The notes beneath the pieces are model-generated. The model did not search any database. It was not told the DNA's origin and was given only the letters and a program-made list of their open reading frames with translations. Position numbers and translations under genes: made by a program. A stretch of DNA of 64,000 bases, from the NCBI RefSeq assembly GCF_027625935.1, contig NZ_CP115300.1, forward strand, positions 3,348,001 through 3,412,000. The letters run 5' to 3'. The stretch comes from Streptomyces camelliae. Its GTDB lineage: Bacteria; Actinomycetota; Actinomycetes; Streptomycetales; Streptomycetaceae. Numbering within the stretch: position 1 is the first letter of the stretch; every line of letters begins with the position of its first letter. Below, piece after piece: positions 34,644-62,321 of the stretch.

Positions 34644-36080
34644 TCAGCGAACCCAGTTTTCCTGGTAGGCGCGCCAGTCGGCCTCCGTCGCCGCGAAGTC
34701 CACGTACAGCGCGACACCGAAGCGCGCCCGGTGGGCGTCGGTCCGGGACAGGCCCAGCCGGACACCGCGGACGGCGGCCGGGACGGTCTCCGCGTGGGCC
34801 CAGTGGCCGAAACGGTTCTCGTGGTAGAAGGGCAGGCCCATGAGGAGGTCGGTGGTCTTCGGGGTGACCTCCAGGGCGAGGCTCGTCTGCTGGGCCACAT
34901 AGCCGCCGTACAGGCTCTGCAACGGCTGCATGGTGTCGTACGACATGACGGCGATCTGGTCCACGCGGCGGGCCACCTGCCCGAAGTAGGCCTGCGACCA
35001 CCACTTGGGGTGACCGGTGGTCGTGCCCCAGAAGGAGTGGAACGCGGGCAGCGGGTCGATCTGGTGCGCGGCGACGGACAGCAGGGCGTGCCGGGCACGG
35101 GTGAGGGTGCGCAGCTGGTCCAGGAGACCGAGATAGTGGCGGTCGCCGGAGTGCAGCGGCTCCAGGTCGAAGTGGACGCCGTCGTAACCGGTGGCGAGGA
35201 CGCGGCGGGTGGAGGCGAGGATCGCGGTGCGGGTGGCGGCACGCTCCAGCCGCATCCCGTCGGGGCTCTCGCTGGCCAGCTTGTCGCCGAGCCACGCCTG
35301 CACACGGACCCCGGGCAGCTCCCGGTGCACGGCCGATATCAGCCAACGGGCCCTCGGATACGCCGAGGCGGGCAGGGTGCCGTCGTCCTCCAGCGGGCCG
35401 GAGTGGACGTAGAGGTCCCGGATGCCGGTGCGCTTCAGCCGCTGGGCGAGCTCCCGCACATCCTGGTCCTTCTTCCGGCCGTCCACCCAGGCGTGGCCCA
35501 GCCAGACGGCGTCCCGGCCACGGGTCGTGGTGCCCTGCTCGGGGGTGCCGGTGTAGTTGACACGAAGGGCGGTCTCGGCGGTGAGGAGGGGCACGAGCAG
35601 GAGCGCGAGGAGGGCGAGACCATAACGAAGCAGACGGCCCCGGACCGTCCTCCCCCCACTCCCCCGCCCGCCGCGGGCCTCGCCCTCGGAGGGAGCCTCG
35701 CCGCCGGAGGGGGCCTCGTCGCCGGAGGGGGCCGGCGCCTGCCGGGGGGCTTCGCCGTCGGAGGAAGCCTCGCCATCGGAGGGAGCCTCGTCGCCGGAGG
35801 GGGCCGGCGCCTGCCGGGGGGTCTCGCCGTCGGAGGGGGCCTCGCCGCCGGAGGGGGCCGGAGCCTGCCGGGGGGTCTTGCCGTCGGCTCCTTCGGTGGG
35901 AGTCTGCCGAGCGTCCTCGACGTCGGGCGGGGTCGGCCCATGCCCGGGGGCGTCGCCGTCGGATGCGGCAGACGTCTGCCCAGCGTCCTCGCTGTCAGGC
36001 GCGGTCGGCCCCCTCCAGGGGGCCTCGCCGTCGGCCCCCTCCGTGGGAACGTGCTCGCGCCGGCCGGGCTCGCTGTCCAT
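34644..36080 (-). CDS. Membrane-anchored GH18-like glycoside hydrolase with repetitive N-terminal region
   Basis: This 478-residue protein has a hydrophilic, repetitive N-terminus (about residues 1-145), one membrane helix (LLRYGLALLALLLVPLLTAE) and an extracellular catalytic-type domain. The segment GYDGVHFDLEPLHSGD resembles the DxxDxDxE motif of GH18 chitinase-like proteins, with D and E present. PLLRV-type barrel strands and YDTMQPLQSLYGGYVAQQ follow. The topology is cytoplasmic or linker N-terminus, anchor, then barrel outside. The substrate is unknown; cell-wall glycans are plausible. I start at the ATG at 36080, which has AGGGGG upstream. Confidence 0.75.
   Translation of the reverse strand: MDSEPGRREHVPTEGADGEAPWRGPTAPDSEDAGQTSAASDGDAPGHGPTPPDVEDARQTPTEGADGKTPRQAPAPSGGEAPSDGETPRQAPAPSGDEAPSDGEASSDGEAPRQAPAPSGDEAPSGGEAPSEGEARGGRGSGGRTVRGRLLRYGLALLALLLVPLLTAETALRVNYTGTPEQGTTTRGRDAVWLGHAWVDGRKKDQDVRELAQRLKRTGIRDLYVHSGPLEDDGTLPASAYPRARWLISAVHRELPGVRVQAWLGDKLASESPDGMRLERAATRTAILASTRRVLATGYDGVHFDLEPLHSGDRHYLGLLDQLRTLTRARHALLSVAAHQIDPLPAFHSFWGTTTGHPKWWSQAYFGQVARRVDQIAVMSYDTMQPLQSLYGGYVAQQTSLALEVTPKTTDLLMGLPFYHENRFGHWAHAETVPAAVRGVRLGLSRTDAHRARFGVALYVDFAATEADWRAYQENWVR
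35716..35890. repeat. Degenerate tandem repeat with 18-bp periodicity
   Basis: The block CCGGAGGGGGCCGG(C/A)GCCTGCCGGGGGG and its surroundings recur with starts near 35716, 35788 and 35842, spacings of 72 and 54 bp, both multiples of 18. On the minus strand this encodes repeats such as RQAPAPSGDEAPSDGE. Copy number is likely to vary between strains. Confidence 0.75.
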
Positions 36081-43285: not shown

Positions 43286-43454
43286 GCGCAAGCAAAGGCC
43301 AGAGAATCACTCGATGTGATGACATGGCGCGGGGGAGGGCTTTACCCAGGCACTTTCTCCCCCATATCGGCGCGCTCACACCTCCGCAAGGGGTCCGGCC
43401 GGCCCAGAGGTACGGTGCTCCTTGGGCCAGGGCGGTGATGATTCGGGGGGAACG

Positions 43455-44699
43455 GTGACAGCAGCCTTGACGGGGCGTCGGGCGGGCGCGCAGGCCGTAC
43501 AGGCCGTGAACGGGCTCACCCGGCGGTGGACGGCGAGCACGCCGGACGCCGAGGGCACGGTCTTCTCGGCACCGGGCGTCTGGCCCCTGCTGGCCTTTCT
43601 GGCCGACGGCGCGGCGGGCCCGGCGCGGGCGGAGCTGAGCGAGGCCCTCGGCCTGCCGGCGGATCAGGCGGCCGGTGCGGCACGGGAGTTGCTGGCGGCG
43701 CTCGCCTCGGTGCCCGGCCTGGACGCGGCGCTCGGCCTCTGGACGCGGCAGGGGCTGCCCCTGCGCGAGGAGTGGCGGGCCGGGCTGCCGGCCGGGTCGT
43801 ACGGGGTGTTCGGCGACGACCTGGTCACCGCGCAGGAACGGCTGGACGCCTGGGCGGCCGAGCGGACCGGCGGGCTGGTCGAGCGCATGCCGGTGACGCT
43901 GACCCGGGACGCGCGGATGGTGCTGGCCAGTGCCCTCGCGCTGCGGACGACCTGGCGGCAGCCCTTCGAGGAGCAGCCGCTGCGGCCGGACGCCGGCCCC
44001 TGGCAGGGCCGGACGCTGCGCGGTCTGCGGCGGCGCGGCCCACGGCCGGACCGGGTGGGTGTGACGGGCACGCCGGACGGCTTCGTGACGGCGCTGACGG
44101 TGCCGGGCGACAACGGCGTCGACGTCCATCTGGTGCTCGGCGAGGAGCGGATGACTCCCGGTCAGGTGCTCACCGCCGGGGTGGGCATCGTGGAGCGGGC
44201 GCTGCCGCTCACCCCGGGCGGCACGCTGCCGCACGGCCACGTCGGCCCCGGCCTGTACGTGGAACAGCAGCCGGCACTGGCGCCGGAGCCGGTGTCGCTC
44301 GACGTACGGACGGTGGCGTACGAGGTGCGTGCCGACCACGACCTCCTGTCCCTGGCCCCGCTCTTCGGCCTGGTGACGGCGTCGGACCCGGCCCACGGCC
44401 ACTTTCCCGGGATCAGTGATGTCCCGCTCGCCGTCGGCCAGGCCCGCCAGTCGGCGCTGGCCCGGTTCGGTGCGCTCGGGTTCCGGGCGGCGGCGGTGAC
44501 GGCGGTCGCGGAGGTGTACGGCAGCGCACCGCCGCAGTACCGCTACGAGTCGAGGGTCGTCCGGGCGGTGTTCGACCGCCCCTTCGGCTTCCTCGCCGTC
44601 GACCGCGAGTCCCGGCTGGTGCTGATGGCGGGCTGGGTCGCGGACCCGGCGCCGGAAGCCGTCAGGAGCTTCCCGGGCGCTGTTCCTCCAGGACGCTGA
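43455..44699 (+). CDS. Serpin-family (serine protease inhibitor-like) protein
   Basis: This 414-residue protein (from the GTG at 43455) has the serpin layout: an N-terminal helical part (GTVFSAPGVWPLLAFLADGA), LASALALRTTWRQPFEEQPL for the strand after the first helices, and a C-terminal DRPFGFLAVDRESRLVLMAG segment. The reactive-loop region (GFRAAAVTAVAEVYGSAPP) lies near residue 350. It lacks a signal peptide, so it is probably cytoplasmic. Whether it inhibits a protease is unknown; the loop is Ala-rich, as in inhibitory serpins. The 3' end overlaps a MarR fragment on the other strand by 38 bases. Confidence 0.82.
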   Translation: MTAALTGRRAGAQAVQAVNGLTRRWTASTPDAEGTVFSAPGVWPLLAFLADGAAGPARAELSEALGLPADQAAGAARELLAALASVPGLDAALGLWTRQGLPLREEWRAGLPAGSYGVFGDDLVTAQERLDAWAAERTGGLVERMPVTLTRDARMVLASALALRTTWRQPFEEQPLRPDAGPWQGRTLRGLRRRGPRPDRVGVTGTPDGFVTALTVPGDNGVDVHLVLGEERMTPGQVLTAGVGIVERALPLTPGGTLPHGHVGPGLYVEQQPALAPEPVSLDVRTVAYEVRADHDLLSLAPLFGLVTASDPAHGHFPGISDVPLAVGQARQSALARFGALGFRAAAVTAVAEVYGSAPPQYRYESRVVRAVFDRPFGFLAVDRESRLVLMAGWVADPAPEAVRSFPGAVPPGR

Positions 44700-44925: not shown

Positions 44926-46193
44926 TCAGCGCGTCCCGCGGACGCGGCGTACCGCTCCGTCCAGCACGGACCAGGGGTCGGCGGGCTCCAGCGCGCCCTC
45001 GGCGGCCCGGTCGAGGAGTTCGGCGAAACAGGCGCGGTAGAGGCGCTCGCGGTCGGCGGTGCCCGTGTCCCGCTCCAGGCGGCGGATCACGCCCTGCTGG
45101 AGTCCGCCGCCGTGGCGCACGGCGATCTTCTTGCGCCAGGCGATCGGCTCGGGCAGCCGGGTGCCCATGGCCGTGCGCAGGTGGTGCTTCTCCCGGCCCT
45201 CGCGCACCTTGCACTCCGGCGCGGTGTCCAGGGCCGTCCGCATCACCGGCCGCGCCCAGAAAGGGTGGTGGGTGGTGGTGCCGTAGGCGAGCGGCATGCG
45301 GTTGGACAGTTCGTTGCTGCGCCGGGTGCGGTCGACGGCCGTGAGGCACTGGTCGATCAGCTCGTCGCGGTGGTCGAAGGGGCGGTAGAGGCCTGCGTTG
45401 ATCAGATCGCTGCCGTAGCCGGTGAGCAGCACCTTCTCGGGGGCGATGTGCGCAGCCGCTGCACGGACGTGGCGGTCAGGGCGACTTCGACGACCTCGGG
45501 CTCGGTGCCGCCGAGCCGGCGGACGGCCTCCGGTATGGAGGCGATGATCTGGCCCTCGGCCAGCTCGACGGGCTCCAGCGCGATGCCGAGTTCGGCGCAG
45601 AGTTCGGCCGCGTCGGCGAGTTCGTCGCCCCAGGGGGTGGCCACGCTGTACGGGGTGACGGACAGCCCGGACGTGGCGGCGAGGTAGGTGACCGTGCCGG
45701 AGTCGATGCCGCCGGACAGCAGGGTGGCGTAGCCGGTGCCCTCGGGGGTGGCCGCGTCGATCCGGCGGATCTCCTCGGTCAGCGCCTCGATCTGGGCCTC
45801 GCCGGCGGCGAGCGGGTCCTCGCGGCGCGGAGCCCGGAACGCGGCGAGCGGGTCCGCCTCGTCGCGGGTCTCGGTCAGGTTCGTGATGCCGGCGATGGTG
45901 CTGGACAGGTCGGTTATGTCGTCGATCCAGGCGTCGGCCTCGTCGCCGCCGGAGAACTCCGAGACCTCGTGGAAGCCGCCGCCGGCGCCGAAGGAGCGGG
46001 CCGCGCCGCCGTACAGGACGACGCAGCGGACCCGTTCGTCGCCGTCCAGGTCGAGCATCAGCCGGGTCAGTTCGCGCATGCGCGCCCTGCTGAACGGATT
46101 CTGTTCGTGCGACTGCGAGAACTCCACCAGGGCGACGCCCTCGGAACGTACCTCGCACGTCATGGTCGCTGTCGCGATGTCGATGGCCGACAC
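44926..46193 (-). pseudogene. carB'-carA' fusion remnant: carboxymethylproline synthase N-terminus joined to carbapenam synthetase C-terminus
   Basis: From a GTG with a strong AAGGAGGG ribosome site, the first ~95 residues match the N-terminus of CarB-type carboxymethylproline synthase (HEQNPFSRARMRELTRLMLD, VLYGGAARSFGAGGGFHEV). At about NLTETRDEADP the frame passes directly into the synthetase domain of a CarA/beta-lactam-synthetase-like enzyme, with the ATP-binding PP-loop LLSGGIDSG. At about 45462 a one-base deletion shifts the frame. The rest (APEKVLLTGYGSDLINAGLY, PIAWRKKIAVRHGGG) continues in another frame to the TGA at 44926. The oxyanion-hole half of CarB and the glutaminase-like N-domain of CarA are missing. 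The product is surely inactive. Confidence 0.82.
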
Positions 46194-46382
46194 GGACCCT
46201 CCTTCCTAGCTCAGAGATAATTGGATAGTTATGCAGACCGACCTGATCGCGCTTCACCGCTCAAACTCCGCGCTTCGCATGGTGTTTGCCGGGAATGCAT
46301 TGCCGGACAGGTTGATTGAATGTACGGTGACCGGAATGTTCATTCACCCACCCAGTCACCCGCTCGGGAAGGAATGCGAACC
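46194..46382. promoter_or_regulatory. Divergent promoter region of the carbapenem-type remnant and the oat gene
   Basis: This 189-bp AT-richer gap separates the carB'-carA' remnant from the acetyltransferase gene. It holds the inverted repeat TGAATG-N18-CATTCA at 46317-46346 and a near-palindrome CCGGGAATGCATTGCCGG at 46289-46306. Either could bind a regulator controlling both directions. GAAGGA precedes the plus-strand ATG and AAGGAGGG the minus-strand GTG. Confidence 0.5.
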
Positions 46383-47537
46383 ATGCCGATGACGGCCCCG
46401 AAGGGCTTTCGCAGCGTGACCAGGAACATGGGGCTCAAGGACGTCGAGGACGACTTCGCGGCCGTCGTCTCCGAGGTGCCCGCCCGCTCCGCCGCCGTGT
46501 TCACCCGGTCGCGCTTCGCGGGACCGAGCGTCGTCCTCAGCCGCGAGGCGGCGCCCCGGCAGCAGAGCCGCGGCATGGTCGTGCTCTCCCGGAACGCCAA
46601 CGTCGCCACCGGCAGCGCGGGCGCGGCCAACGCGGCCGAGGTGCGCCGCAGGGTCGCCGAGATCGCCGGCATCGACCCCGAGGAGCTGGTCATCGGCTCC
46701 ACCGGAGTGATCGGCCGTCCCTACCCCATGGAGAGCATCCGGGCCGGACTCGACGCGCTGTCCTGGCCGTTCCCGGAGGCGGACTACGCGGCGGCGGCCG
46801 CGGCCATCATGACGACGGACACCCGGCCCAAGTACCTCAGCGTGCGGGTCGGTGACGCCGTGCTCGCCGGTATCGCCAAGGGCGTGGGCATGATCGAACC
46901 GAACATGGCCACCCTGCTGACTTTCTTCTTCACCGACGCGGACATCCCGGCCGCCGAACTCGACGCCCTGTTCCGCCGGGTGATGGACCGGACGTTCAAC
47001 GCCCTGAGCATCGACACCGACACCTCCACCAGCGACACCGCCGCGATCTTCGCCAACGGCCTGGCCGGTCCCGTCGACCTCGCCGAGTTCGAGCAGGCGC
47101 TGCACACCGTCGCCCTGCACCTCGTCCGCGACATCGCCTCCGACGGCGAGGGCGCCGGCAAGCTCATCGAGGTCCAGGTCACCGGGGCCCGCGACGACGC
47201 CCAGGCCAAGCGGGTCGGCAAGAGCGTGGTCAACTCGCCCCTGGTGAAGACGGCCGTGCACGGGGCCGACCCCAACTGGGGCCGGGTCGCGATGGCCATC
47301 GGCAAGCTGGAGGACGAGACCGACATCGAGCCGCCCCGGGTACGGATCTGGTTCGACGACCTCCCCATGCACCCGGAGGAGCCGAGCGACGCGCTGCTGG
47401 AGCAGGCCGCACGGTATCTGACCGGCGACGAGGTGGTCATCCGGGTGGACCTCGGCATCGGCGACGGTGCGTTCACCGTCTACGGCTGCGACCTCACCGA
47501 GGGCTATGTGAAGATCAACGCCGACTACACCACCTGA
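46383..47537 (+). CDS. oat: Ornithine acetyltransferase, OAT2/ArgJ family
   Basis: This 384-residue protein is a full-length, undamaged member of the ArgJ family. It has RGMVVLSRNANVATG near residue 65, the self-cleavage site GMIEPNMATLLTFFFTDADI (Thr nucleophile after MA, near residue 180) and a C-terminal YGCDLTEGYVKINADYTT. From memory its wording is closest to OAT2 of the clavulanic acid cluster (FTRSRFAGPSVVL, SIDTDTSTSDTA, NGLAG). It would transfer acetyl groups between N-acetylornithine and glutamate. It is divergent from the carB'-carA' remnant and ends in a strong hairpin. Together these suggest it belonged to a beta-lactam pathway rather than to arginine synthesis. Confidence 0.9.
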   Translation: MPMTAPKGFRSVTRNMGLKDVEDDFAAVVSEVPARSAAVFTRSRFAGPSVVLSREAAPRQQSRGMVVLSRNANVATGSAGAANAAEVRRRVAEIAGIDPEELVIGSTGVIGRPYPMESIRAGLDALSWPFPEADYAAAAAAIMTTDTRPKYLSVRVGDAVLAGIAKGVGMIEPNMATLLTFFFTDADIPAAELDALFRRVMDRTFNALSIDTDTSTSDTAAIFANGLAGPVDLAEFEQALHTVALHLVRDIASDGEGAGKLIEVQVTGARDDAQAKRVGKSVVNSPLVKTAVHGADPNWGRVAMAIGKLEDETDIEPPRVRIWFDDLPMHPEEPSDALLEQAARYLTGDEVVIRVDLGIGDGAFTVYGCDLTEGYVKINADYTT

Positions 47538-47546
47538 GCCGGCCGC

Positions 47547-47580
47547 GCTGCGGCACGGTCCGCCCGGACCGTGCCGCAGC
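47547..47580 (+). terminator. Hairpin terminator after oat
   Basis: A perfect 15-bp stem (GCTGCGGCACGGTCC paired with GGACCGTGCCGCAGC) has a 4-base loop and begins 10 bases after the oat stop. There is no T-run. Because a minus-strand remnant ends just beyond it, it may act on both strands. Confidence 0.75.
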
Positions 47581-47587
47581 GGCGCGC

Positions 47588-47916
47588 TCAGTACACCGGG
47601 AGCCGGGGATCGATCTCGTTCGCCCATCCGACGGCGCCCCCTTCCAGGTGTACCGCGCCGGTGAACCCGGCCGCCCGCGCCACGGTCAGGACCTGGAGCG
47701 TGCGCACCCCGGTCCGGCAGTAGAAGACCGGGGTGCGGTCCTGCCGCAGCGTCGGCAGGGCGGACCCGTCCGGCCACTCGGGCAGTGCACCCCGCGGTAG
47801 AAGACCACCAGGCTGAAGCGGTCGGGACGCTGGTCGGCGAGGACCCAGCGGCCGCCGCCGACCAGCGGGACGTCGAGGGCGGGCACGGGCCGACGGGGGG
47901 CGAGTGACGTGTGCAT
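47588..47916 (-). pseudogene. Out-of-frame fusion of peroxiredoxin N-terminus and rhodanese C-terminus
   Basis: From the ATG at 47916 the first ~45 residues resemble an AhpC/TSA-type peroxiredoxin start (LADQRPDRFSLVVFYRGVHC). At about 47780 the coding pattern moves to another frame, which reads as the end of a rhodanese domain: TPVFYCRTGVRTLQVLTVAR, with the active-site-type Cys in CRTGVR, then GGAVGWANEIDPRLPVY and a stop at 47588. A deletion joining two genes or domains out of frame is the simplest account. Confidence 0.7.
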
Positions 47917-47993
47917 GGCAGGCTCCGGTGCGGGCGAGTCGTTTCGGACGGTCGGGGCGGTTCGGACGGTCGGGGCGGCGGGGTGTACGGCGC

Positions 47994-48607
47994 TCAGGCC
48001 GCGTCCGGCAGGGTCAGCCGGCCGCGGAACAGCACCCGGGTGCCGCCCGGGCTGATGGCCGTACGGCCGTGCAGGGTCCGCTGGTTGCCGGTGATCATCA
48101 GGTTTCCCACCTGCCAGCGGTGGGTGTGCGCGTAGCGCGGTGCGCGCAGGAAGGCGTCCAGCTCGGTGAAGAACCGGTCGGACTCCTCGGGGTCCCTCCC
48201 CTTGACCCTGACCTCCCAGGAGCGCGGAGTGACGTCCGGTGGGAAGGCCGTGGCCAGGTTCAGGGACTTCACCCGGCCGTAGTCCCGGGTCGCCGGGATG
48301 GTGTACCAGTCCTCCGGGACGGTCGGGAAGTAGCCGCGCTCGGTGACCAGGTACTCGATCTCGTGCTCGTCGAGAACCCGGCGCAGCCGCTCGGGCATCT
48401 CCGCCCAGGCGGTCAGCTGGTCGCTGACGTAGGTCTTGCCCGAGCCGGGGGCGTCGGAGAACTCGGCGGCGTACAGGATGATCAGGTCGACCCGCTCACC
48501 GACCAGCAGCCCGTCGGTGTGAATGGGCAGCGGCCCGCGCCCGGTGACGACCTTCCCCTCGTCCCGGGAGGCGTTGAGCTTGAGCAGATCGGCGCCGCCC
48601 TCGCCGA
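47994..48607 (-). pseudogene. 5'-truncated CarC-like (carbapenem synthase) Fe(II)/2-oxoglutarate oxygenase
   Basis: The minus-strand frame is open from 48607 to the TGA at 47994 but has no start: about 205 residues remain of a roughly 275-residue protein. It contains DEGKVVTGRGPLPIHTDGLL with the HxD iron ligands, VDLIILYAAEFSDAPGSGKT, and the distal ligand region TGNQRTLHGRTAI. Wording and spacing follow CarC (VTGRGQLPFHADG, LYAAEI, RVLEE, ERGY). In CarC such enzymes epimerise and desaturate carbapenams. The N-terminus is cut off exactly where a TnpC-like fragment begins. TauD-like oxygenases such as clavaminate synthase are the alternative. Confidence 0.78.
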
Positions 48608-48916
48608 GACTTCTACGACAAGGTCCGCGCCCGCGGCGCCACCCCCGACAGCGAACAGCGCCTGCGCAAACAGGTCCGCCGCCTCAAGGAACTCCGGGCT
48701 GCCGACGCGGAGGAGATCGCCCGGCTCAAGGCTGACGTCGAAGCCCTCGTCGGCGCCCTGCACCAAGCAACCGCCGAGAACCAACTCCTACACCAACAGT
48801 TGGCAGACCGTACGGCCGGGCTCCGCCCGCTGCCCTCTCAGCATCAGCCGCAGGCCCCCCGTACGGAGAGCAGGCCCTCGGAGAGTACCGGAACGGGATA
48901 TAGGGGTATGCGATGA
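48608..48916 (+). pseudogene. TnpC-like (recombinase-helper) 3' remnant
   Basis: The frame DFYDKVRARGATPDSEQRLR, then RLKELRAADAEEIARLKADV, and a Pro-rich end stopping at 48916 has the helical look of TnpC-type proteins. These accompany tyrosine recombinases in Tn554-like tnpABC elements. From memory, similar proteins are common in Streptomyces. The start is missing: it begins at the exact point where the CarC-like gene is cut. It is probably the end of an element whose insertion or deletion removed the oxygenase start. Confidence 0.6.
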
Positions 48917-49036
48917 TCACTGTGCACCGGCGAGGCGATCGGCCCCGACATCCTGGCTCAGACACAGGGTTCCTTCCCCGGCCGGGCCCGGCCACGAGCT
49001 CGTTGAACGGTCACCGCGACGGCCGGCTGCCCGCGT

Positions 49037-50491
49037 TCATCGGGGTTCGCCGAACCAGCAGCCGAGCGCCCGTTCCAGGTCATGTGTGCTGCCATCCGGG
49101 TTGCTGGCCCAGCACACGTAGCCGTCCGGCCGAATGAGCATCGGCTCGGTGTCGGCGCCCTGACCCACGCGATCCACTCGGTCTGACCAGAGGGCGGCGA
49201 CCTTGGCGAACGTGTCGGCAGGGTCGAGCAGGACGCCGCGCCCGGACCGTAGCAGTTCGTGCAGCCGGACCGAGCCGGGGATGTCCATGTCCGGCGAAGG
49301 CCGGCCGACGAGCGGGTGGGTCTTGGTGTCCGGCATCGGGTAGCGGACCGCCGTCCCGGACAACGTGTCGGCGAGAAAGTCCTGGACCTCCGGCAGCCGC
49401 ACCATGTCCGTGAAGATCGCCTTGAGGGCCTCCACGTCAGGGTCGCGGGTGCCTGCCCAGTCCATCAGCAGGCTCTGCGCCTGGACGTTGCGCAGCACGG
49501 CGGCTCCTACCGGGTACCGTTCCGTGTGATACGTCTCCAGCAGGTTCTCCGGTGCCCAGCCGTGCACCGCGGCGCCGAGTTTCCAGCCGAGATTGAGTGC
49601 GTCCTGCATCCCGGTGTTCATGCCCTGCGCGCCGAGCGGAAGGTGGATGTGGGCGGCATCTCCCGCCAGGAACACCCGCCCGTGCCGGTACTGCTCGACC
49701 TGCCGGGCCGCGTTGGTGATACGGCGGGCGTAGCGCAGTTCGAGCAGATGCACGCGCGATTCGAACACCCTGCGCAGGCCGCCGCGGATCTCCTCCTCGG
49801 TGACCGGGACCTCCCTGGGCAGTGACCGGCCCGGCCCGCCCAGGGCGAGCCTGTGCAGCGGCCTGCCCTGCGGATCGGTACCGAGCGGGAACAGTGCCGC
49901 CCAGTGCCCGTCGTCGCTCCAGGTGTGCGACACCGACTGGTCGACGCCGCTCAACCGCACGTCGGCGGCGACCACGGTCAACGTGCCCGGTCGCCCCGGG
50001 AAGCCGACCCGCAACAGCGAGCGCACCGTGCTGTGAGCGCCGTCGGCGGCGACGAGATATCGGGCGTGGACGGTGGCGCCGTGGGCGAAGGTCGCGGTGA
50101 CCGTGTCCGCGTCCTGGGCAAGGCCGACCAATTCGTGGTCCCGCCGGACGTGGATCCCGCGCGCGGCGAGGTGCTCTTCGAAGAACCCCTCGATCGCCAC
50201 CTGCGGCACGGAGCGCCACGGCAGGCGGTGCCGAGCGAGGTGGGCCGGGAGCGGTATGCCGGCGAAGTGGCCGTCGATGACCGGATGGTCTCCGGCTGCC
50301 AGCACCGGTTCCAGCAGCCCGCGCTGGTCGAGTGCCTCCAGCGTGCGGGACTGCATGCCACCTGCCTTGGACAACTCGCTGCGCTGCGGCAGCTTGTCGA
50401 CCAGCACGGTCGACACCCCCGCCACCAGCAGTTCGTTGGCCAGTGTCATTCCGGTCGGGCCCGCGCCGACGATGAGCACGTCCGTGTCCAT
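49037..50491 (-). CDS. FAD-dependent aromatic monooxygenase (PHBH-like, polyketide-hydroxylase type)
   Basis: This 484-residue protein starts MDTDVLIVGAGPTGMTLANE with the FAD dinucleotide-binding fold. It has the family segments GGMQSRTLEALDQRGLLEPV, YLVAADGAHSTVRSLL (DG motif) and VFLAGDAAHIHLPLGAQGMN (GD motif). The C-terminal thioredoxin-like part (VLLDPADTFAKVAALWSDRV) is as in antibiotic-pathway hydroxylases. It would hydroxylate an aromatic compound using NADPH and oxygen. I start at the ATG at 50491; the open frame runs further. It is divergent from the Lrp-type regulator by about 115 bases, so the two are probably a regulated pair. Confidence 0.9.
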   Translation of the reverse strand: MDTDVLIVGAGPTGMTLANELLVAGVSTVLVDKLPQRSELSKAGGMQSRTLEALDQRGLLEPVLAAGDHPVIDGHFAGIPLPAHLARHRLPWRSVPQVAIEGFFEEHLAARGIHVRRDHELVGLAQDADTVTATFAHGATVHARYLVAADGAHSTVRSLLRVGFPGRPGTLTVVAADVRLSGVDQSVSHTWSDDGHWAALFPLGTDPQGRPLHRLALGGPGRSLPREVPVTEEEIRGGLRRVFESRVHLLELRYARRITNAARQVEQYRHGRVFLAGDAAHIHLPLGAQGMNTGMQDALNLGWKLGAAVHGWAPENLLETYHTERYPVGAAVLRNVQAQSLLMDWAGTRDPDVEALKAIFTDMVRLPEVQDFLADTLSGTAVRYPMPDTKTHPLVGRPSPDMDIPGSVRLHELLRSGRGVLLDPADTFAKVAALWSDRVDRVGQGADTEPMLIRPDGYVCWASNPDGSTHDLERALGCWFGEPR

Positions 50492-50606
50492 GGTTTCTCC
50501 TCTGGTTGTGCCGGTCAGGACAGGAGCAACGGTCCACCTGCCGGGCCGACAGAGCCAGAAACCGGCCCAGTTGCGTTGGTATCCGACGTTGATTAGCTTC
50601 GCTTCG

Positions 50607-51599
50607 GTGGAATCCGACTCCGATGAGCTGGATCGTCGACTCGTGCACGCCCTACAGATCGACGGCCGGGCCCCGTTCAGCACCATCGCCGAGGTTCTCG
50701 GCGTGTCGGATCGCACCATCGCCCGCAGGTACGCCCGGCTGCGGTCGACCGGGGCGGTGCGGGTGCTCTGCGGGGTCGACCCGACCGCGCTGGGCGGGAT
50801 GCTGTGGTTCCTGCGGGTGCGATGCGCACCCACCGCTTCGGTCCCGGTCGCCGAGGCGCTGGCCGGACGCCCCGATACCTCCTGGGTGAGCCTCAGCTCC
50901 GGGGGTACCGAGATCACCTGCGTGGTCCGCGCCGAGTGCGAGGCCGACAGCGAGGCGCTGCTGCTGGCCAAGCTCCCCCGGACTCCCCGGGTGGAGGGGG
51001 TGACCGCGCATTCGGTGCTGCACGCTTTCTACGGGGGCCCGGACAACCTGATCGGCAAGCTCGGATTGCTGGACGAGGAGGCGATCGAACGGCTGCGCCC
51101 GCCCCCGGTGTCGAACCGGCCGGGACCGGTGCGGCTCGACGACGGTGACCGCAAGCTACTCGCCGCGCTCGCCGGCGACGGCCGGGCCGGATTCGAGCAG
51201 TTGGCTGCGGCGACCGGCTGGTCGGCGACGACGGTCCGGCGCCGGATGACGGAGCTGCGCGAACGAGGAGTGCTGTACCTGGACCTCGACGTCGACTGGC
51301 GCATGTTCGACATGGGCAGCCGAACCCTGCTCTGGCTCTCGGTCGCTCCCGCGCATCTGGCAGAGGTCGGCCAAGCGCTGGCCGAGCATCCAGAGATCGC
51401 GTTCGCCGCCGCCACGACCGGGCCGACCAACCTGTACGCGAGCGTGGTGTGCGCGAACCAGCGGGAGCTGTACCGGTACCTGACCACCCGGGTGGCCGCG
51501 CTGCCGGCCGTCACGCACGTCGAGACGGCACCCGTCATCAGGACCGTCAAACAGGCAGGGCAGCGCCGTTCAGGAGATCTGCCCGGTTTGATCACATGA
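50607..51599 (+). CDS. Lrp/AsnC-family regulator with two HTH and two ligand domains
   Basis: This 330-residue protein contains two AsnC-type modules in tandem. The first HTH is ELDRRLVHALQIDGRAPFST (then IAEVLGVSDRTIARRYARL) and the second is DGDRKLLAALAGDGRAGFEQ (then LAAATGWSATTVRRRMTEL). Each is followed by an RAM-type ligand domain. The frame is open upstream, but the GTG at 50607 gives the normal start. It probably controls the divergent monooxygenase gene. The double-length form occurs in Streptomyces. Confidence 0.88.
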   Translation: MESDSDELDRRLVHALQIDGRAPFSTIAEVLGVSDRTIARRYARLRSTGAVRVLCGVDPTALGGMLWFLRVRCAPTASVPVAEALAGRPDTSWVSLSSGGTEITCVVRAECEADSEALLLAKLPRTPRVEGVTAHSVLHAFYGGPDNLIGKLGLLDEEAIERLRPPPVSNRPGPVRLDDGDRKLLAALAGDGRAGFEQLAAATGWSATTVRRRMTELRERGVLYLDLDVDWRMFDMGSRTLLWLSVAPAHLAEVGQALAEHPEIAFAAATTGPTNLYASVVCANQRELYRYLTTRVAALPAVTHVETAPVIRTVKQAGQRRSGDLPGLIT

Positions 51600-51779
51600 G
51601 GTCGAGGGTGGCCAGTGGGCGGGTGGCGTTCCGTGCGGGTAGGACCACGGTTTGCAGTTGAGTTCGGGCGTCACAGGTACTCCTGGACAGTCAGCCGCTG
51701 TACCGCGGCAAGGCCAGAACGCCGTCAGCCGTGGCCACCGCAGCACCCTCGCCAGATCAGAGGTTCCGGTCAGCCCTTG

Positions 51780-52010
51780 CTCAACACGCTGGACTTGGCA
51801 GAGAAGCGCTGCGGGACGGCATCGCCGACGGCTCCTTCAACCCGGACCTGGACCCCCGGGCCACTGCCTACGCCCTGTGGGCCGCCATGAACGGCATCCT
51901 CGCCCTGAGCCGGCGAGCCGACCGACTCCGCGTCGCGCCCGAGGACATGGGCCCGTACTCGACACCATCGTCACCGTGCTCACCCGCGGCCTCGACTCAA
52001 GAAACCGACC
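51780..52010 (+). pseudogene. C-terminal remnant of a TetR-family regulator, frameshifted
   Basis: The segment EALRDGIADGSFNPDLDPRA, then TAYALWAAMNGILALSRRAD and RLRVAPEDMG, matches the ligand-domain end of a TetR regulator. The pattern then continues one base over (VLDTIVTVLTRGLDSRN), so a frameshift lies near 51955. The DNA-binding domain is absent. It lies between the Lrp gene and a broken TPR gene. Confidence 0.65.
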
Positions 52011-52052
52011 ACTCTGTTCACCTGTACAGACCCGCGCAGCAGAGGAACGACC

Positions 52053-52496
52053 GTGCAACTGCCCGAGGGCGTCTTCGCCGAGATCAAGGAGCTGTGCCAG
52101 GAAGGCGATGCCCTGACCGGCATGGGAGAGTTCGACGAGGCCGAGCCGCGCTAAGCGCAGGCCCTACGGCTGCTTCCGGGTGGTCCGCGTGCCTGGGCCG
52201 CTTCGACCTGGATCCATGTGGCGATCGGCGACGCGCGCTGGCGCCATCGGAGCTTCGCCGAGGCGTACGCGTCCTTCCGCGACGCCGTCGAGTGCCCCGA
52301 GGGACTCGGCAACCCGTACATTCACCTGCGCCTGGGCCAGACCGCCTTCGAGCTCGGCCACCACGACCAGGCCGCGGACGAACTGATGCGCGCCTACATG
52401 GGAGGCGGCCCCGGCATCTTCGACGAGGACGACCCCAAGTACCTCGCCTTCCTGCGGACCCGCGCAGACCTCGGCCCCGGCACACGCTCACGGTGA
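52053..52496 (+). pseudogene. TPR protein gene with an in-frame stop
   Basis: From a GTG at 52053 the frame reads VQLPEGVFAEIKELCQEGDA and hits TAA at 52152, then continues in the same frame (GNPYIHLRLGQTAFELGHHD, FDEDDPKYLAFLRTRADL) to a TGA at 52494. Without the TAA it would be a typical ~147-residue Streptomyces tetratricopeptide protein. A single substitution explains the defect; both parts keep good sequence. It suggests recent decay or a sequencing error. Confidence 0.7.
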
Positions 52497-52779
52497 GACG
52501 TTCCGCGCCCGCGCCCGCCCTGCGACTCGCCACCGACATGCTGACGGCCCTGCTGCTGCCTGCCGCGCGTACGGTCTTCACGACCCTCGCGGAGGGGTCC
52601 GGTGACGCGGGGTACTGCGGATACGCCCTGTACTCCGATGCCGACGCGAGGACGGTCTGCTGCGCGGTCAACACACGCAGCCACCTGGCTCGCAGCCCGC
52701 TCTCTGGCCCGAGCCGCCCTCGCCGGCACCGGCCGAGGTCCCACCACGGCGTTGGCCTACCTGCGCCACCAGGTCACCG
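52497..52779 (+). other. Possible DUF4303-like fragment
   Basis: A frame near 52530-52690 reads TVFTTLAEGSGDAGYCGYAL and then YSDADARTVCCAVNT, loosely like the start of DUF4303 proteins. It soon merges into unrelated sequence before the integrase remnant. The support is weak; no functional gene is claimed. Confidence 0.3.
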
Positions 52780-53077
52780 CGTCTACACCCACTTCATGGA
52801 CGGTGCATGGCGGCCCGCATGCCAGAAGGCCGGCATACCGAAGGGCACCGATCCCCATGCCCTCCGGCACCACTACGCCAGCCCGCTGATCAAGAACGGC
52901 GAGTCGGTGAAGACCGTCTCCGAGCGGCTCGGTCATACCGATGCCGCGATGACGCTGAACATCCACACCCACCTCTGGCCCGACTCCGAGGAGCGGACCC
53001 GCGCCGCCGTGGACCGCGCCTACGGCGCCGACCACGACGCGGACCAGGGTGACATCCCGACCGCCGAAGCGGCGTAA
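52780..53077 (+). pseudogene. C-terminal remnant of a phage-type tyrosine integrase
   Basis: The frame has the conserved DPHALRHHYASPLIKNGESV (HxLR...H box), VSERLGHTD and NIHTHLWPDSEERTRAAVDR. In active enzymes the position in T-Y-S-H-L-W carries the nucleophilic tyrosine; here it is H (NIHTHLW), so it is dead. The N-terminal and most of the catalytic domain are missing. It marks the end of the second island, about 110 bases before ychF. Confidence 0.75.
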
Positions 53078-53184
53078 CGACGCCGGTCGCGTCGGCCGGA
53101 GTTGGCAGTCCTGCGGACTCCATGCGGACCGCAAAGGCCGCCCAACCCACTCCGCCGCAGGTCAGACGGCCTTCCGATGATCGC

Positions 53185-54273
<1,089 letters not shown>

Positions 54274-54466
54274 GTTGCGACTTCCCGTAGTGAGTGGGCG
54301 ATGAGTGGGCCGGAGGTGCCAGGGGCCAGAGACTGACACTGGCCGATCCCCCAGTTTACGGCGTCCACGGCGACGGCCTCGCGGGAGCTTCGAACGCCCG
54401 GCCAAGCTCTTTTCACCGGCGTGTCTGATGGGCGATTCGGCACATAAACAGACCTAAGTTGGTCCA

Positions 54467-55009
54467 GTGGAGCAACACAGAACGCGACCCCCGAACGACG
54501 GACCGCGACGCGGCATGCCACCGCCCGCGCAGCTGCCCCCGCAGGCCCGCCGCCGGCCGGCGTCAGGGGCAGATCCGCGGCAGGTACGGCAGGTACGGGT
54601 CGCCCGGCCGGCGCCGCCCGCGGGGCGGCTGCCGGGCCCCCGGCTCACCGGGCTCGGCAGCGGGCTCTTCTGCATCGTCGTGATGTTCCTGCTCGGCTGC
54701 CTGGACCAGCTGCTGTTCGGTGCGTCCATGCCGGTGTACGGCGTGCTGTTCGTGCCGGTGTGCGTCCTGACCGCACTATGGGTGCGTGACAGTGACCTGC
54801 TGACCGCCCCCGTGATCCTGCCGATCGCGTTCGCCCTCGGGCTGCTCCCCGTCGCCGACGGCAAGGCGGGGCTGCTCTCCCGCCTGATGGGCGTGTTCAC
54901 CGGGCTCGCCACGCAGGCCGGCTGGCTGTACGGCGGGACGCTCGTCGCCTGCGTGATCGTGCTCGTCCGGCGGGTGCGGTGGGTACGGCGGCGCCGGCGC
55001 CGTACCTGA
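54467..55009 (+). CDS. DUF6542-type membrane protein
   Basis: This 180-residue protein has a basic, proline-rich N-terminus (about 65 residues), four hydrophobic helices (LFCIVVMFLLGCLDQLLFGA, VYGVLFVPVCVLTALWVRDS, LLTAPVILPIAFALGLLPVA, GWLYGGTLVACVIVLVRRVR) and an arginine-rich tail. The layout fits the DUF6542 family of actinobacterial membrane proteins of unknown role. GTG start. It is divergent from ychF and followed by the repeat at 55011-55105. Confidence 0.78.
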   Translation: MEQHRTRPPNDGPRRGMPPPAQLPPQARRRPASGADPRQVRQVRVARPAPPAGRLPGPRLTGLGSGLFCIVVMFLLGCLDQLLFGASMPVYGVLFVPVCVLTALWVRDSDLLTAPVILPIAFALGLLPVADGKAGLLSRLMGVFTGLATQAGWLYGGTLVACVIVLVRRVRWVRRRRRRT

Positions 55010-55010
55010 A

Positions 55011-55105
55011 CGCCGTACCGGTACCCGCCGTACCGGTACCCGCCGTCCCGGATACCCGCGCCGTACCCGGTACCCGCGCCGTACCCGGTACCCGGCGCTT
55101 CTCCT
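55011..55105. repeat. Degenerate tandem repeat rich in GGTACC
   Basis: Short units like GCCGTACCGGTACCC repeat with variation (CCGTACCGGTACCCGCC, GTACCCGCGCCGTACCCG) between two convergent genes. GGTACC occurs several times. The region could form hairpins and stop transcription from both sides. Confidence 0.7.
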
Positions 55106-55856
55106 ACCGGTGCTGCTGCTCGGCCGCTCTCATCGCCGCGCCCACGATCCCCGCGTTGTTCTGCAGCTGCGCGGGGACGATCTCGGCTCTGACGCCCTGG
55201 ATGAGGTGCAGGAACTTGTCCGCCTTGCGGCTGACCCCGCCGCCGATGATGAACAGCTCGGGCGAGAAGAGCATCTCCACGTGCGCCAGGTACTTCTGGA
55301 CGCGGTGCGCCCACTGCTCCCAGCTCAGCTCGCCGTCCTCCTTGGCCTTGCTGGAGGCGCGCTTCTCGGCGTCGTGGCCGTTGAGCTCCAGGTGGCCCAG
55401 CTCCGTGTTCGGCACGAGGACGCCGTCGACGAAGACGGCGCTGCCGATGCCGGTGCCGAAGGTGAGCAGGATGACCGTGCCCGTCCGGTCGCGGCCGGCG
55501 CCGAAGCGCATCTCGGCGACGCCCGCGGCGTCCGCGTCGTTGACCACCGTCACCGGCAGCCCGCCGAGCCGGCCGCCGAACAGCGCGCCCGCGTCCGTGT
55601 CGATCCAGCTCTTGTCGACGTTCGCCGCCGTGCGGACCATGGCGCCGCCCGTGATCACTCCGGGGAAGGTCAGGCCGACCGGGCCCGTCCAGCCGAAATG
55701 GTCCACGACCTGCTTGACCCCGTCGGCCACGCCGTCCGGTGTCGCCGGGTGCGGGGTGAGCACCTTGCAGCGCTCCTGGGCCAGGTCGCCCTTGTCCAGG
55801 TCCACAGGGGCGCCCTTGATCCCTGATCCGCCGATGTCCACGCCGAAGATCTGCAT
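55104..55856 (-). CDS. ppgK: Polyphosphate glucokinase
   Basis: This 250-residue ROK-type kinase starts MQIFGVDIGGSGIKGAPVDL and has TGTVILLTFGTGIGSAVFVD and the polyphosphate-glucokinase-type segment PNTELGHLELNGHDAEKRAS. An ATP/polyP site follows near LFIIGGGVSRKADKFL. It phosphorylates glucose using polyphosphate (and usually ATP) in the cytoplasm. The length is normal and the ATG start is clear. It lies upstream of the repeat at 55011-55105; ispH is on the same strand behind it. Confidence 0.93.
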   Translation of the reverse strand: MQIFGVDIGGSGIKGAPVDLDKGDLAQERCKVLTPHPATPDGVADGVKQVVDHFGWTGPVGLTFPGVITGGAMVRTAANVDKSWIDTDAGALFGGRLGGLPVTVVNDADAAGVAEMRFGAGRDRTGTVILLTFGTGIGSAVFVDGVLVPNTELGHLELNGHDAEKRASSKAKEDGELSWEQWAHRVQKYLAHVEMLFSPELFIIGGGVSRKADKFLHLIQGVRAEIVPAQLQNNAGIVGAAMRAAEQQHR

Positions 55857-55885
55857 GGCACCACGTTACGACGGACCACTGACAG

Positions 55886-56893
55886 TCACGCCTCGGCGGC
55901 ACCGCTCCCGCCGCGCTCGGCGACCAGCGTGGCCGCCTCTTCGCGCAGGTCACGGCGGAGTTCCTTGGGCAGCGAGAAGGTGATGGACTCCTCGGCCGCC
56001 CTGACCAGCTCCACGTCGCCGTAGCCCCGCTCGGCGAGCCACTGAAGGACCTGCTCGACCAGGACCTCGGGGACGGAGGCACCGGAGGTGACGCCGACGG
56101 TCGTCACGCCCTGGAGCCAGGCCTCGTCGATCTCGTCGGCGAAGTCCACCAGGTAGGCCTCGCGGGCTCCGGCCAGCTTGGCGACCTCGACCAGCCGCTT
56201 GGAGTTGGAGGAGTTGCGCGAGCCGACGACGACGACCAGCTCGGCCTCGGCGCCCATCTGCTTCACGGCGAGCTGCCGGTTCTGCGTGGCGTAGCAGATG
56301 TCGTCGCTGGGCGGGGAGACCAGCCCGGGGAACTTCGTCTTCAGGGCGTCGACGGTCTCCATCGTCTCGTCGACGGAGAGGGTGGTCTGGGACAGCCAGA
56401 CGACCTTCGACGGGTCGCGGACCTCGACCTTGGCGACGTCGCCCGGGCCGTCGACGAGCTGGATGTGGTCGGGGGCCTCGCCGGAGGTGCCGATGACCTC
56501 CTCATGGCCCTCGTGCCCGATCAGGAGGATGTCGTAGTCCTCCTTGGCGTAGCGGACGGCCTCCTTGTGGACCTTGGTGACCAGGGGGCAGGTGGCGTCG
56601 ATGGTGGCGAGCCGGCCCCGCGCGGCCTCCTCGTGCACGACCGGGGCGACGCCGTGCGCCGAGAACATCACGATGTTGCCGGGCGGCACCTCCTCCGTCC
56701 GCTCGACGAAGATCGCGCCCTTCTTCTCCAGGGTCTGCACGACGTACTTGTTGTGGACGATCTCGTGCCGGACATAGATCGGGGCCCCGTACTGTTCGAG
56801 GGCCTTCTCGACGGCGATCACGGCGCGGTCCACACCCGCGCAGTAGCCACGAGGGGCGGCGAGCAGGACACGGCGGCCAGTCGAAGAGGTCAT
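55886..56893 (-). CDS. ispH: 4-hydroxy-3-methylbut-2-enyl diphosphate reductase
   Basis: This 335-residue [4Fe-4S] enzyme completes the MEP isoprenoid pathway. The cluster cysteines are in [12 protein letters not shown] (residue about 18), [11 protein letters not shown] (about 105) and [11 protein letters not shown] (about 200). HHxG-like and SGASVPE segments near 275 complete the site. I start at the ATG at 56893 ([11 protein letters not shown]); a nearby in-frame ATG upstream (MGHMTSS) is less likely. It lies 30 bases before ppgK on the same strand; the APC permease diverges. Confidence 0.95.
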
Positions 56894-56958
56894 GTGCCCC
56901 ATCGTAAAGCCCGTGTCCGACCGCGTTCGGACGCGTGGTGCGGGGAAGACTGGTCGCC

Positions 56959-58344
56959 ATGTCCGACACCGGTACGGCGGCTTCCACGACCGGCGCACAG
57001 CACCGGCTGCGGCGCAGCCTGGGCTCCAGGGACCTGGTGGTCTACGGGCTGCTGTTCATCGCCCCGATGGCGCCGGTGGGGGTGTTCGGCACGCTGGACG
57101 CCCGGTCGCACGGCGCGGTGGCGCTGGTGTACGTGGTGGCGACGGTCGCCATGGGATTCACCGCATTCAGCTACGCGCAGATGGTGCGGGTCGTACCGCA
57201 GGCGGGGTCGGTGTTCGCCTACGCGCGCGTGGGGCTCGGCAGAGGGGCTGGGTTCATCGCGGGCTGGATGGCGATGCTGGACTACGTCCTCATCCCGGCC
57301 GTCGCCTATCTCTTCTCCGGCATCGCGATGAACGCGCTGGTGCCCCAGGTGTCCCGGTGGGTGTGGACGATGCTCGCGGTGGTGATCACGACGCTGCTGA
57401 ACCTGTGGGGCGTGCGCGCCGCCGCGCGCGTGGGCTTTCTCGTGCTGGCGATGGAGATCGTCGTCCTGGTGGTGTTCGTGACGGCGGCGATCGTGGTCCT
57501 GGCGCGGGACGGGGCGACACGGCCACCCCTGTCCCCCCTGACGGGCGACGGCACGCAGGGCGGGTTCGCGCTGTCCGGGGTGATCGGCGCGGTGTCGGTG
57601 GCCGTGCTGTCGTACCTGGGCTTCGACGCGATCGCGGCCTTCGCCGAGGAGGTCACCGGGGGCTCGGCCGAGGTGGCGCGGGCGCTGCTGTTCTGCCTGG
57701 CGCTGGCCGGTGTGCTGTTCGTGGCGCAGACGTACCTGGTCGCCCTGCTGGAGCCGGCGACGTCCGCGCAGCTGGCCGCCGATCCGGCCCGGCAGGGGCC
57801 GGCCTTCTACGACGCCGTCGACGTCTCGGTGGGGCGCCGGCTGCACGACCTGGTGGCCGCGAGCAAGGCGATCGGCGCGGCGTTCGCGGCGCTGGCGGGG
57901 CAGGCCGCGGCGGGACGGCTGCTGTTCGCGATGGGACGCGACCGACGGCTCCCGCGCGCGTTGTCGCGCACGGACGCGGGCGTACCGCGGGTCGCCCTGC
58001 TGTGCGCCGCGGTGATCACGCTCCTCGCGGCGGGGTGGGCGGCACGGCGCGACGACGGGCTGGACAAGCTGGTCTCCGTGGTCGACATCGGCGCCCTGAC
58101 GGCCTTCACCCTGCTGCACGCGAGCGTGGTGGGCTGTTTCGCGGTACGGCGGCGCGGGGACGGGCGGCGGCCGAGCTGGTGGCGGCATGTGCTGGCGCCG
58201 GTGCTCGGGGCGGCGATCACGGTGGCGGTGATCGTGGCGGCGAGCGGGGTGGCGCAGGTGGTGGGGGCGGTGTGGCTGGCGATCGGGGTGCTGGTGCTGG
58301 TGGGGCAGCGGGGGCGGACGGGGGTCGCCGAGGAGTTGCCGTAG
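56959..58344 (+). CDS. APC-family amino acid permease
   Basis: This protein of about 461 residues has roughly twelve hydrophobic segments ([80 protein letters not shown]). It has the APC signature region near [12 protein letters not shown]. It would import or exchange an amino acid or amine; the substrate cannot be told from the sequence. I use the ATG at 56959 (MSDTGTAAS) rather than the earlier frame start. It diverges from ispH and is followed within 40 bases by xseA. Confidence 0.88.
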
Positions 58345-58379
58345 CCCCCCTGTCAGTACTCCCCGTTACTCTCGACCGC

Positions 58380-59809: not shown

Positions 59810-59946
59810 CGGCAGCCGGGCGCTGTGAAGCGAATCACCGTACTCCAGTTTTCGTTGAAGGTTAAACCTCATCTGGCGTATGGTCGGTTTCCGTCAGCCG
59901 GTCCGGCACCTCCTGGACCGGACACGCACGCTCAGGAAGTCCACGC

Positions 59947-60537: not shown

Positions 60538-60550
60538 GACGCCCCCGAAC

Positions 60551-60589: not shown

Positions 60590-60606
60590 ACGGTCGTACG
60601 CGCGGG

Positions 60607-62296: not shown

Positions 62297-62321
62297 GTCC
62301 GGGCCGAGTACGCCTGTTCAA

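Follow-up and report, generated by a model that had tools for sequence, protein, structure and literature searches.

Remains of a carbapenem-type beta-lactam cluster in Streptomyces camelliae and an intact sister locus adjoining early clavam genes

We analyzed a 64,000-nucleotide stretch of Streptomyces camelliae DNA (contig NZ_CP115300.1, positions 3,348,001 to 3,412,000; hereafter the window) that carries broken genes for CarA-, CarB- and CarC-like enzymes around an intact ornithine acetyltransferase (OAT) gene. With a probability that we put at roughly 0.7, these pieces are the eroded edge of a large beta-lactam-type cluster whose intact form combines a car/nonribosomal peptide synthetase (NRPS) half with an early clavam half. 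Carrying this reading are the relics themselves, a whole sister locus in Streptomyces sp. CoH27, the gene content of that locus and the linkage of the two halves in two species, all of which are directly observed. The intact sister cluster is a larger finding than the relic in the window.

The relic begins with a single 263-residue minus-strand open reading frame (ORF; 45402–46193) that reads first as CarB and then as a CarA/beta-lactam synthetase, in its synthetase domain. Its first part, carB' (45880–46193, minus strand), holds ~105 codons from the start of a carboxymethylproline synthase-like gene, 99.0% identical to CoH27 carB, and is fused in frame, through a deletion of ~957 bp, to carA' (44926–45878, minus strand), the synthetase-domain remnant of a carbapenam/beta-lactam synthetase gene that is 98.4% identical to the intact CoH27 carA over 317 comparable codons. 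A frameshift follows at ~45.45 kb, and from there down to 44926 CarA is read in another frame. The OAT2-type (ArgJ family) gene that follows is intact (46383–47537, plus strand; the ORF could be opened at 46320, and the CoH27 start aligns to 46383). Next to it, by comparison with CoH27, stand the last ~63 of 110 codons of a rhodanese-like gene (47588–47779, minus strand), joined by a deletion of ~514 bp to a redoxin/AhpC-like remnant of which the first 49 of 173 residues were matched (47771–47916, minus strand). The last piece, carC' (47994–48612, minus strand), encodes a CarC-like 2-oxoglutarate (2OG) oxygenase without its first ~70 codons; it retains ~205 of 277 residues, including the HTDG metal motif and the LHGR motif, and has Phe at the position of CarC Tyr165.

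Among the sequences of solved structures, residues 9–104 of carB' matched the CarB homolog of PDB 5o34 (6.5e-41) and CarB 2a7k (2.7e-14), with other crotonases at 1.8e-3 or above. The C-terminal part of carA' matched beta-lactam synthetase 1jgt (1.2e-13) and CarA 1q15 (1.6e-13), with asparagine synthetase B at 2.3e-3, and carC' matched carbapenem synthase 1nx4 (3.1e-23) and 4oj8 (3.7e-23), the next protein lying at 3.5e-3. A general crotonase, an asparagine synthetase and TauD are ruled out as identities by these matches; the NCBIfam matches of the relic pieces were to general families, far below cut-off. The window OAT had as its top match 1vz6 (1.1e-155), which we take to be OAT2 of the clavulanate cluster; chains related to 1vz6 carry the name glutamate N-acetyltransferase 2, and the window OAT scored 412 bits against the NCBIfam ArgJ equivalog (cut-off 351).

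A previous sequence-only reading of this DNA had proposed a decayed carbapenem-type cluster made up of a CarB-like N-terminus, a CarA-like C-terminus, a CarC-like oxygenase missing its start and an intact OAT2-type gene. This reading is largely right. The structure-sequence matches agree with the CarB, CarC and OAT assignments. For CarA the type of enzyme stands, with beta-lactam synthetase equally near, but the remnant is longer than a C-terminus and is fused in frame to carB'. The outcome that would have spoken against such a cluster, with asparagine synthetase, enoyl-CoA hydratase and TauD as best matches and no strain holding the genes together, did not occur: CoH27, S. diastatochromogenes and others have all of the genes whole beside the OAT gene. 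The former product may have been a carbapenem.

CoH27 is rated the same species as the window genome and keeps the cluster genes whole. In a search of a genus sample of 392 genomes with CarC (threshold 1e-20), matches were found in six, one of them the window's own relic. The window and CoH27 are colinear at 98.1–98.5% identity over 18752–45878 (with a gap at 35834–36017), at 98.3% over 45880–47779 and at 94.9% over 47771–48612, and colinearity resumes over 53186–64000 at 98.0–98.4% (with a gap at 57073–57866). Relative to CoH27, the end of carB and the start of carA are absent at the 45878/45880 break, part of the rhodanese and redoxin genes is absent at 47771–47779, and smaller indels and the frameshift occur besides. 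Unrelated DNA of 4.6 kb (48613–53185, by alignment) stands in place of CoH27 181762–216458, that is, of 34.7 kb of the cluster. The decay proposed by the earlier reading is seen directly as a fusion deletion, a frameshift and truncated rhodanese, redoxin and carC genes. In CoH27, CarA (482 residues), CarB (259) and CarC (277) are encoded next to one another, with OAT (384), rhodanese (110) and redoxin (173) in between; because this same-species strain has the same gene order with the genes whole, the order of the relics is not due to chance. The CoH27 cluster spans ~39 kb and is flanked on one side by a serpin-like gene and on the other by a GTPase gene, taken to be ychF. The serpin-family gene at the cluster edge (Pfam Serpin 2e-20), a member of a family unusual in bacteria, lies at 43422–44699 of the window (plus strand), and its CoH27 counterpart at 175113–176357.

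Translocation of the lost genes to another place in the window genome was considered and not found with four probes. CarC matched the relic alone, the probe for the fused amidinohydrolase–clavaminate synthase described below found nothing beyond a 43% agmatinase-like match to its amidinohydrolase part, CeaS gave no match at 1e-150, and 8 kb of DNA from the NRPS region gave only short matches (at most 349 bases, 64–93%).

Beyond carC, the CoH27 cluster contains many further genes. In all, 33 proteins were called, the last of them with 89 residues; 30 were scanned with Pfam, while OAT was scanned as the window copy and the thiamine enzyme by NCBIfam only. After carC comes a first NRPS block with a carrier protein and NRPS1, a condensation–adenylation–peptidyl carrier protein (PCP)–thioesterase protein in which the condensation match is below cut-off. 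It is followed by a pyridoxal phosphate-dependent decarboxylase of the ornithine/diaminopimelate type, NRPS2 (adenylation–PCP–condensation), an FMN-binding protein, an acyl-CoA dehydrogenase-like protein, an AMP ligase and a LuxR regulator. Next in order are ArgH and ArgG, a formyltransferase, a second CarB-like crotonase, MaoC, a methyltransferase, an AurF-like oxygenase, an amino acid:carrier-protein-ligase-like protein, a phosphopantetheinyl transferase and an ATP-grasp ligase. At the end of the cluster are an arginase–TauD fusion, a beta-lactam synthetase (BLS), a thiamine-diphosphate enzyme, an EamA transporter, a FemAB-like protein and an MFS exporter. The fusion, one protein of 671 residues in CoH27 (L035:16146–18161) and two separate ORFs in S. 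pseudovenezuelae, matched proclavaminate amidinohydrolase (PAH; 2e-151) and clavaminate synthase 1 (CAS; 3e-124), and the synthetase matched BLS 1jgt at 6.2e-153 versus CarA at 2e-18. From its neighbors and its size, we take the thiamine-diphosphate enzyme to be CeaS; in a sample of 382 genomes of the genus, 25 have relatives at 1e-150, the window's own genome not being among them. Judging by these matches, the part of the CoH27 cluster lost from the window includes the early clavam pathway (CeaS-like, BLS and PAH–CAS).

With code positions picked by motif, the adenylation code of NRPS2 reads DL(Y/W)N(L/M)SLIW in all nine loci compared, which we take to agree with a cysteine code, and that of NRPS1 reads DPRLFALL(A/S) in seven of the nine, L008 and L013 having yielded no residues. 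A prolyl-ligase/pyrrole cassette was considered for the AMP ligase and the acyl-CoA dehydrogenase and found no support, the best matches being acyl-CoA-type ligases and ordinary acyl-CoA dehydrogenases. The second CarB-like protein (L035:10119–10883) has His where four other aligned CarB-type proteins have the Glu of the MPE motif, a residue with a catalytic role.

The two beta-lactam-type pathways are contiguous in CoH27 and in S. pseudovenezuelae. In the latter, a 919-kb contig carries OAT, a gene for a 539-residue protein, CeaS, BLS, PAH, CAS, FemAB-like, ATP-grasp ligase (LAL) and MFS genes and, 2.2 kb on and past two genes, the whole block that runs from the AMP ligase through the NRPS genes to CarC, redoxin, rhodanese, CarB and CarA; ArgH and ArgG homologs follow the CarA block, and later a second CarA. 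The search for PAH and CAS covered 19 genome handles, or 17 distinct genomes, as G392 and G399 have the coordinates of G033 and G372; four had both at an identity of at least 60%. They are linked to car genes in CoH27 and S. pseudovenezuelae, lie 5 Mb from them in a third genome (G052), and in Saccharothrix luteola stand on a contig of 262 kb, apart from the two contigs with its car genes.

Several further features of these loci were observed. The second CarA-like gene of S. pseudovenezuelae (G394:C4:176787–178217) is 64% identical to CoH27 CarA and is followed by genes for a 287-residue protein and an FAD-enzyme-like protein, which resemble two genes after CarA in S. diastatochromogenes. The S. 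diastatochromogenes cluster includes a flavin-halogenase/QhpG-like gene (under cut-offs) and a FabF-like ketosynthase gene (L039:198–2914), and genes similar to this pair, as judged by their N-termini, lie at 173623–176291 in S. pseudovenezuelae. In Saccharothrix luteola, the same car-type locus is present on two scaffolds (L013 and L014), and the clavam genes are on a further contig (G401:C5).

The wider distribution of the car half was assessed with 89 CarC homologs, 35 of which were used for the alignment that drove a locus search and a class-wide search. The locus search scanned two short motifs, and its list of at least 24 loci is a lower bound; nine of these (L018–L026) matched short stretches only and were dropped, leaving 15 full-length CarC loci, a count that includes CoH27 and both of the near-identical Saccharothrix loci. 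CarA, CarB and CarC occur together in 12 of the 15, and an OAT gene lies within the fetched stretch in 12 of 15. The exceptions are L006, with OAT 27 kb from carC, L007, with neither CarB nor OAT in the stretch, L008, with neither CarA nor CarB within the stretch, and L011, which has CarC alone of the core. In CoH27 and S. diastatochromogenes, the OAT gene stands between carB and the rhodanese gene, and car-type genes have an OAT gene with them in Micromonospora, Saccharothrix, Rhodococcus and Acinetobacter as well. The idea that OAT marks the clavam half alone was rejected, since car genes with OAT occur without nearby clavam genes, for example in S. diastatochromogenes. Class-wide, a CarC match at 1e-25 was found in only one of 394 genomes, the window's own relic, indicating that the CarC family is rare.

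Substrates, products, the order of loss and the reason for the linkage of the halves are matters of inference. CarB would couple malonyl-CoA with a cyclic imine amino acid, which in the known cases is pyrroline-5-carboxylate, CarA would close the beta-lactam with ATP and the CarC-type oxygenase would oxidize the bicycle, while OAT together with ArgG and ArgH would supply ornithine and arginine. The two NRPS proteins (NRPS2 with its cysteine-type code), the decarboxylase, the ligase, the rhodanese and the redoxin may tailor the product of the car half. CeaS, BLS, PAH and CAS would make clavaminate from arginine, with the ATP-grasp ligase, the FemAB-like transferase and the exporter acting alongside. 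In the window strain, the cluster would have been lost through a single large replacement (~34.7 kb) together with two lesser deletions and a frameshift, leaving the car relics to drift and OAT alone whole, probably as a second arginine-pathway acetyltransferase; since CoH27 keeps the cluster whole, loss after the split of the window strain and CoH27 is the simplest reading. More tentatively, and as a conjecture that we consider less probable than not, the cluster would represent a second kind of supercluster that arose independently of the cephamycin–clavulanate one, in which an att/car pathway with a cysteine NRPS, perhaps making a thiol-bearing or 5S bicyclic beta-lactam, is joined to a clavam pathway furnishing a beta-lactamase inhibitor or a partner, and of which the window strain lost all but OAT after the sister split.

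Aligned to 1nx4, CoH27 CarC keeps the iron ligands H101, D103 and H251 and the 2OG-binding R263, with positions counted by hand and checked against the residues named in PMC6097109. CarC Tyr165 has been proposed as the hydrogen donor for C5 epimerization (PMC6097109). The corresponding column holds Phe in 85, Tyr in one and other residues in three of the 89 homologs, the window relic included; the Rhodococcus fascians and Acinetobacter proteins also have Phe, and the Pantoea protein has Tyr. A Y165F mutant of CarC still carries out catalytic substrate oxidation (PMC6097109). The Phe165 family, a natural counterpart of this mutant, is predicted to consist of oxidases or desaturases that act without stereoinversion.

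The pattern of substitution is consistent with decay in the window strain. Between the window and CoH27, codon differences (synonymous/nonsynonymous) number 15/20 in the carA, carB and carC relics together, 11/2 in OAT and 188/96 in 24 flanking control genes (found at >95% length); by Fisher's test, the relics differ from the controls (p = 0.009) and from OAT (p = 0.020). Polarization with S. diastatochromogenes assigns 7/16 of the relic changes (synonymous/nonsynonymous) to the window branch and 5/1 to that of CoH27 and leaves 3/3 ambiguous. The redoxin'–carC' piece is 96.7% identical to CoH27, beside the 98.4 and 99.0% given above for carA' and carB', and two flanks are 98.3 and 98.9% identical. 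These comparisons show, with modest statistics, what appears as relaxed selection on the relics in the window strain, and the window OAT looks like a gene that changes as a working gene does.

Several points weigh against the two-part cluster as we read it. The clavam half is linked in only two of the nine distinct loci of NRPS type; in S. diastatochromogenes, the 100 kb read contains the car half and arginine genes without CeaS, BLS or PAH–CAS, and OAT was not found in the 60 kb read around the car genes of G052. Identity to the CoH27 proteins is only 40% for the ArgH and 47% for the ArgG encoded next to CarA in S. pseudovenezuelae and G052. NCBIfam gives the CeaS-like enzyme only acetolactate-synthase-type names, under cut-off, and the gene lists rest on a home-made gene caller. 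Phe in place of Tyr165 casts doubt on the formation of a (5R)-carbapenem along the known CarC route. As to decay, OAT does not differ significantly from the control genes (p = 0.23), and the branch test for relaxed selection is suggestive only (p = 0.056). To our knowledge, no product is known for any member of this cluster family.

The closest precedent came from a plasmid search with intact CarC (tblastn, threshold 1e-15), which returned six records. The match on R. fascians pFiD188 lies in the series argH–argG–formyltransferase–CarB–CarA–CarC–AMP ligase–argJ near a fas gene; from its place and from the description in papers of the att locus, a 10-gene locus beside fasR (PMC7261884, PMC4092121), this set is taken to be the att operon. 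The R. fascians D188 proteins are identical to those of CoH27 at 53% (ArgH), 66% (ArgG), 43% (CarB), 30% (CarA), 42% (CarC) and 56% (OAT); the AMP ligase, at 30% over 328 residues, belongs to a large superfamily, and between the annotated formyltransferase and its CoH27 namesake there was no match at 1e-8. The att stretch as listed is without NRPS, rhodanese, redoxin and clavam genes and has ArgP and LysE genes beside it. The att core (CarB–CarA–CarC with OAT, ArgH and ArgG) is present in full in CoH27, dispersed over ~22 kb, and the window retains only CarB', CarA', CarC' and OAT of it. The car-plus-OAT set that the sequence-only reading had called unusual is real but recurrent, with att as its precedent. 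A compact argJ–CarB–CarA–CarC–ligase set was also seen on Acinetobacter indicus plasmid pB18-1 (L104:7502–14207).

This shared core lends some weight to an alternative in which the car half makes a signal (an autoregulator) or a non-beta-lactam bicycle rather than an antibiotic, as has been proposed for att: att products have been suggested to act in signaling (PMC7261884), and the CarC family lacks Tyr165. We regard it as unlikely but the most serious of the alternatives, because in Streptomyces NRPS genes add to the core, which two species have linked to a clavam pathway, and because the att metabolite had not been identified as of 2014 (PMC4092121), so that the comparison is with another uncharacterized product. 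Decay of an ordinary Pectobacterium-type car cluster, making (5R)-carbapen-2-em-3-carboxylate with OAT as a bystander, is improbable. The CarA/CarB/CarC trio is common to both, and the best solved structures for carB' and carC' are CarB-type and CarC. However, on the Pantoea sp. At-9b plasmid, through which the Pectobacterium cluster was compared, proline dehydrogenase and a 2Fe-2S protein come after CarA–CarB–CarC, as in the classical car layout, whereas neither proline dehydrogenase nor ferredoxin (CarD/CarE) appears as a family among the 30 Pfam-scanned CoH27 proteins, which include NRPS proteins; Pantoea CarC has Tyr165 where the family has Phe, and no argJ within 12 kb or NRPS is listed there (the gene table may be incomplete), as opposed to OAT in 12 of 15 loci. 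Since OAT accompanies car genes in R. fascians and Acinetobacter and none is listed in the Pantoea stretch, it appears to mark the att-type branch, in which, to go by a few lineages, it may replace CarD/CarE as the source of an ornithine- or proline-derived substrate.

Two further readings have very little to recommend them. OAT could be a housekeeping arginine gene that lies beside the relics by chance, as its ArgJ score above the equivalog cut-off, its working-gene pattern of change, its distance from carC in L006 and the failure to find it in the stretches of L007, L011 and G052 would allow; but the window genome has another ArgJ gene (G000:C1:7376897), the window OAT is nearest 1vz6, and OAT sits within the car genes in CoH27 and S. 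diastatochromogenes and with them in four other genera, making a chance neighbor very improbable. Assembly errors as the cause of the broken genes, for which we found no point in favor, are scarcely credible: the genome is in 3 contigs for 9.6 Mb with completeness 100, the four probes found no copy elsewhere in it, and one misassembly does not account for several distinct deletions, the frameshift, the 34.7-kb replacement and the amino-acid-changing drift of the relics.

The eroded two-part cluster also has partial counterparts among known streptomycete systems. The thienamycin (thn) and MM 4550 (cmm) clusters also begin with steps of the CarB/CarA type; in Streptantibioticus cattleyicolor, a CarB-like protein, probably ThnE of S. 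cattleya, is 69% identical over the carB relic. The thn cluster is described as having no close CarC homolog (PMC6097109), and no radical SAM family, as used for the C6 side chain in thn/cmm, was named in the Pfam scans of 30 CoH27 proteins. Counterparts of all five early clavam enzymes of S. clavuligerus (CeaS, BLS, PAH, CAS and OAT2) are found in CoH27, and clavam enzymes are the best solved-structure matches for BLS, PAH, CAS and OAT (window copy). Unlike in S. clavuligerus, PAH and CAS are fused in CoH27, and no P450, short-chain dehydrogenase or beta-lactamase-like family was named among the scanned proteins. The cephamycin C–clavulanate supercluster of S. clavuligerus likewise consists of two adjoining beta-lactam pathways (PMC6856088), but the partner of the clavam genes there is cephamycin C, whereas in CoH27 it is a car-type/NRPS cluster.

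In PMC6856088, the term supercluster denotes cephamycin C with clavulanate, and the clavulanic acid (CA)-like clusters that non-producers carry are said not to form superclusters. Co-occurrence of CA-like with MM 4550-like (carbapenem) clusters in the same genome has been reported (PMC12482188); the main text of that paper uses "adjacent" only for cephamycin C, and the terms CarC, CarA, NRPS, CoH27, S. diastatochromogenes and S. pseudovenezuelae do not come up in it. Among the top-listed titles and abstract openings of the open-licence literature searched, we found no report of a linked clavam and car-type cluster. New here, as a form of known systems, is an att-type CarBAC–OAT core that has gained NRPS genes and that in two species adjoins a clavam pathway. 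This linkage offers a direct test of whether the pairing of a beta-lactam with a beta-lactamase inhibitor, familiar in nature from cephamycin and clavulanate, evolved more than once, and the decayed and intact forms within one species show how such a cluster is lost.

The DNA that replaced most of the cluster in the window (48613–53185) is an apparent mosaic, and copies of parts of it lie at G000:C1:9265365 and 9261198 in the window genome. Read on the plus strand, it resembles, by eye, a transposase coiled coil and the end of an integrase. It also contains genes for an AsnC-type regulator and an FAD monooxygenase of the rifampin-monooxygenase type (394 bits, cut-off 800).

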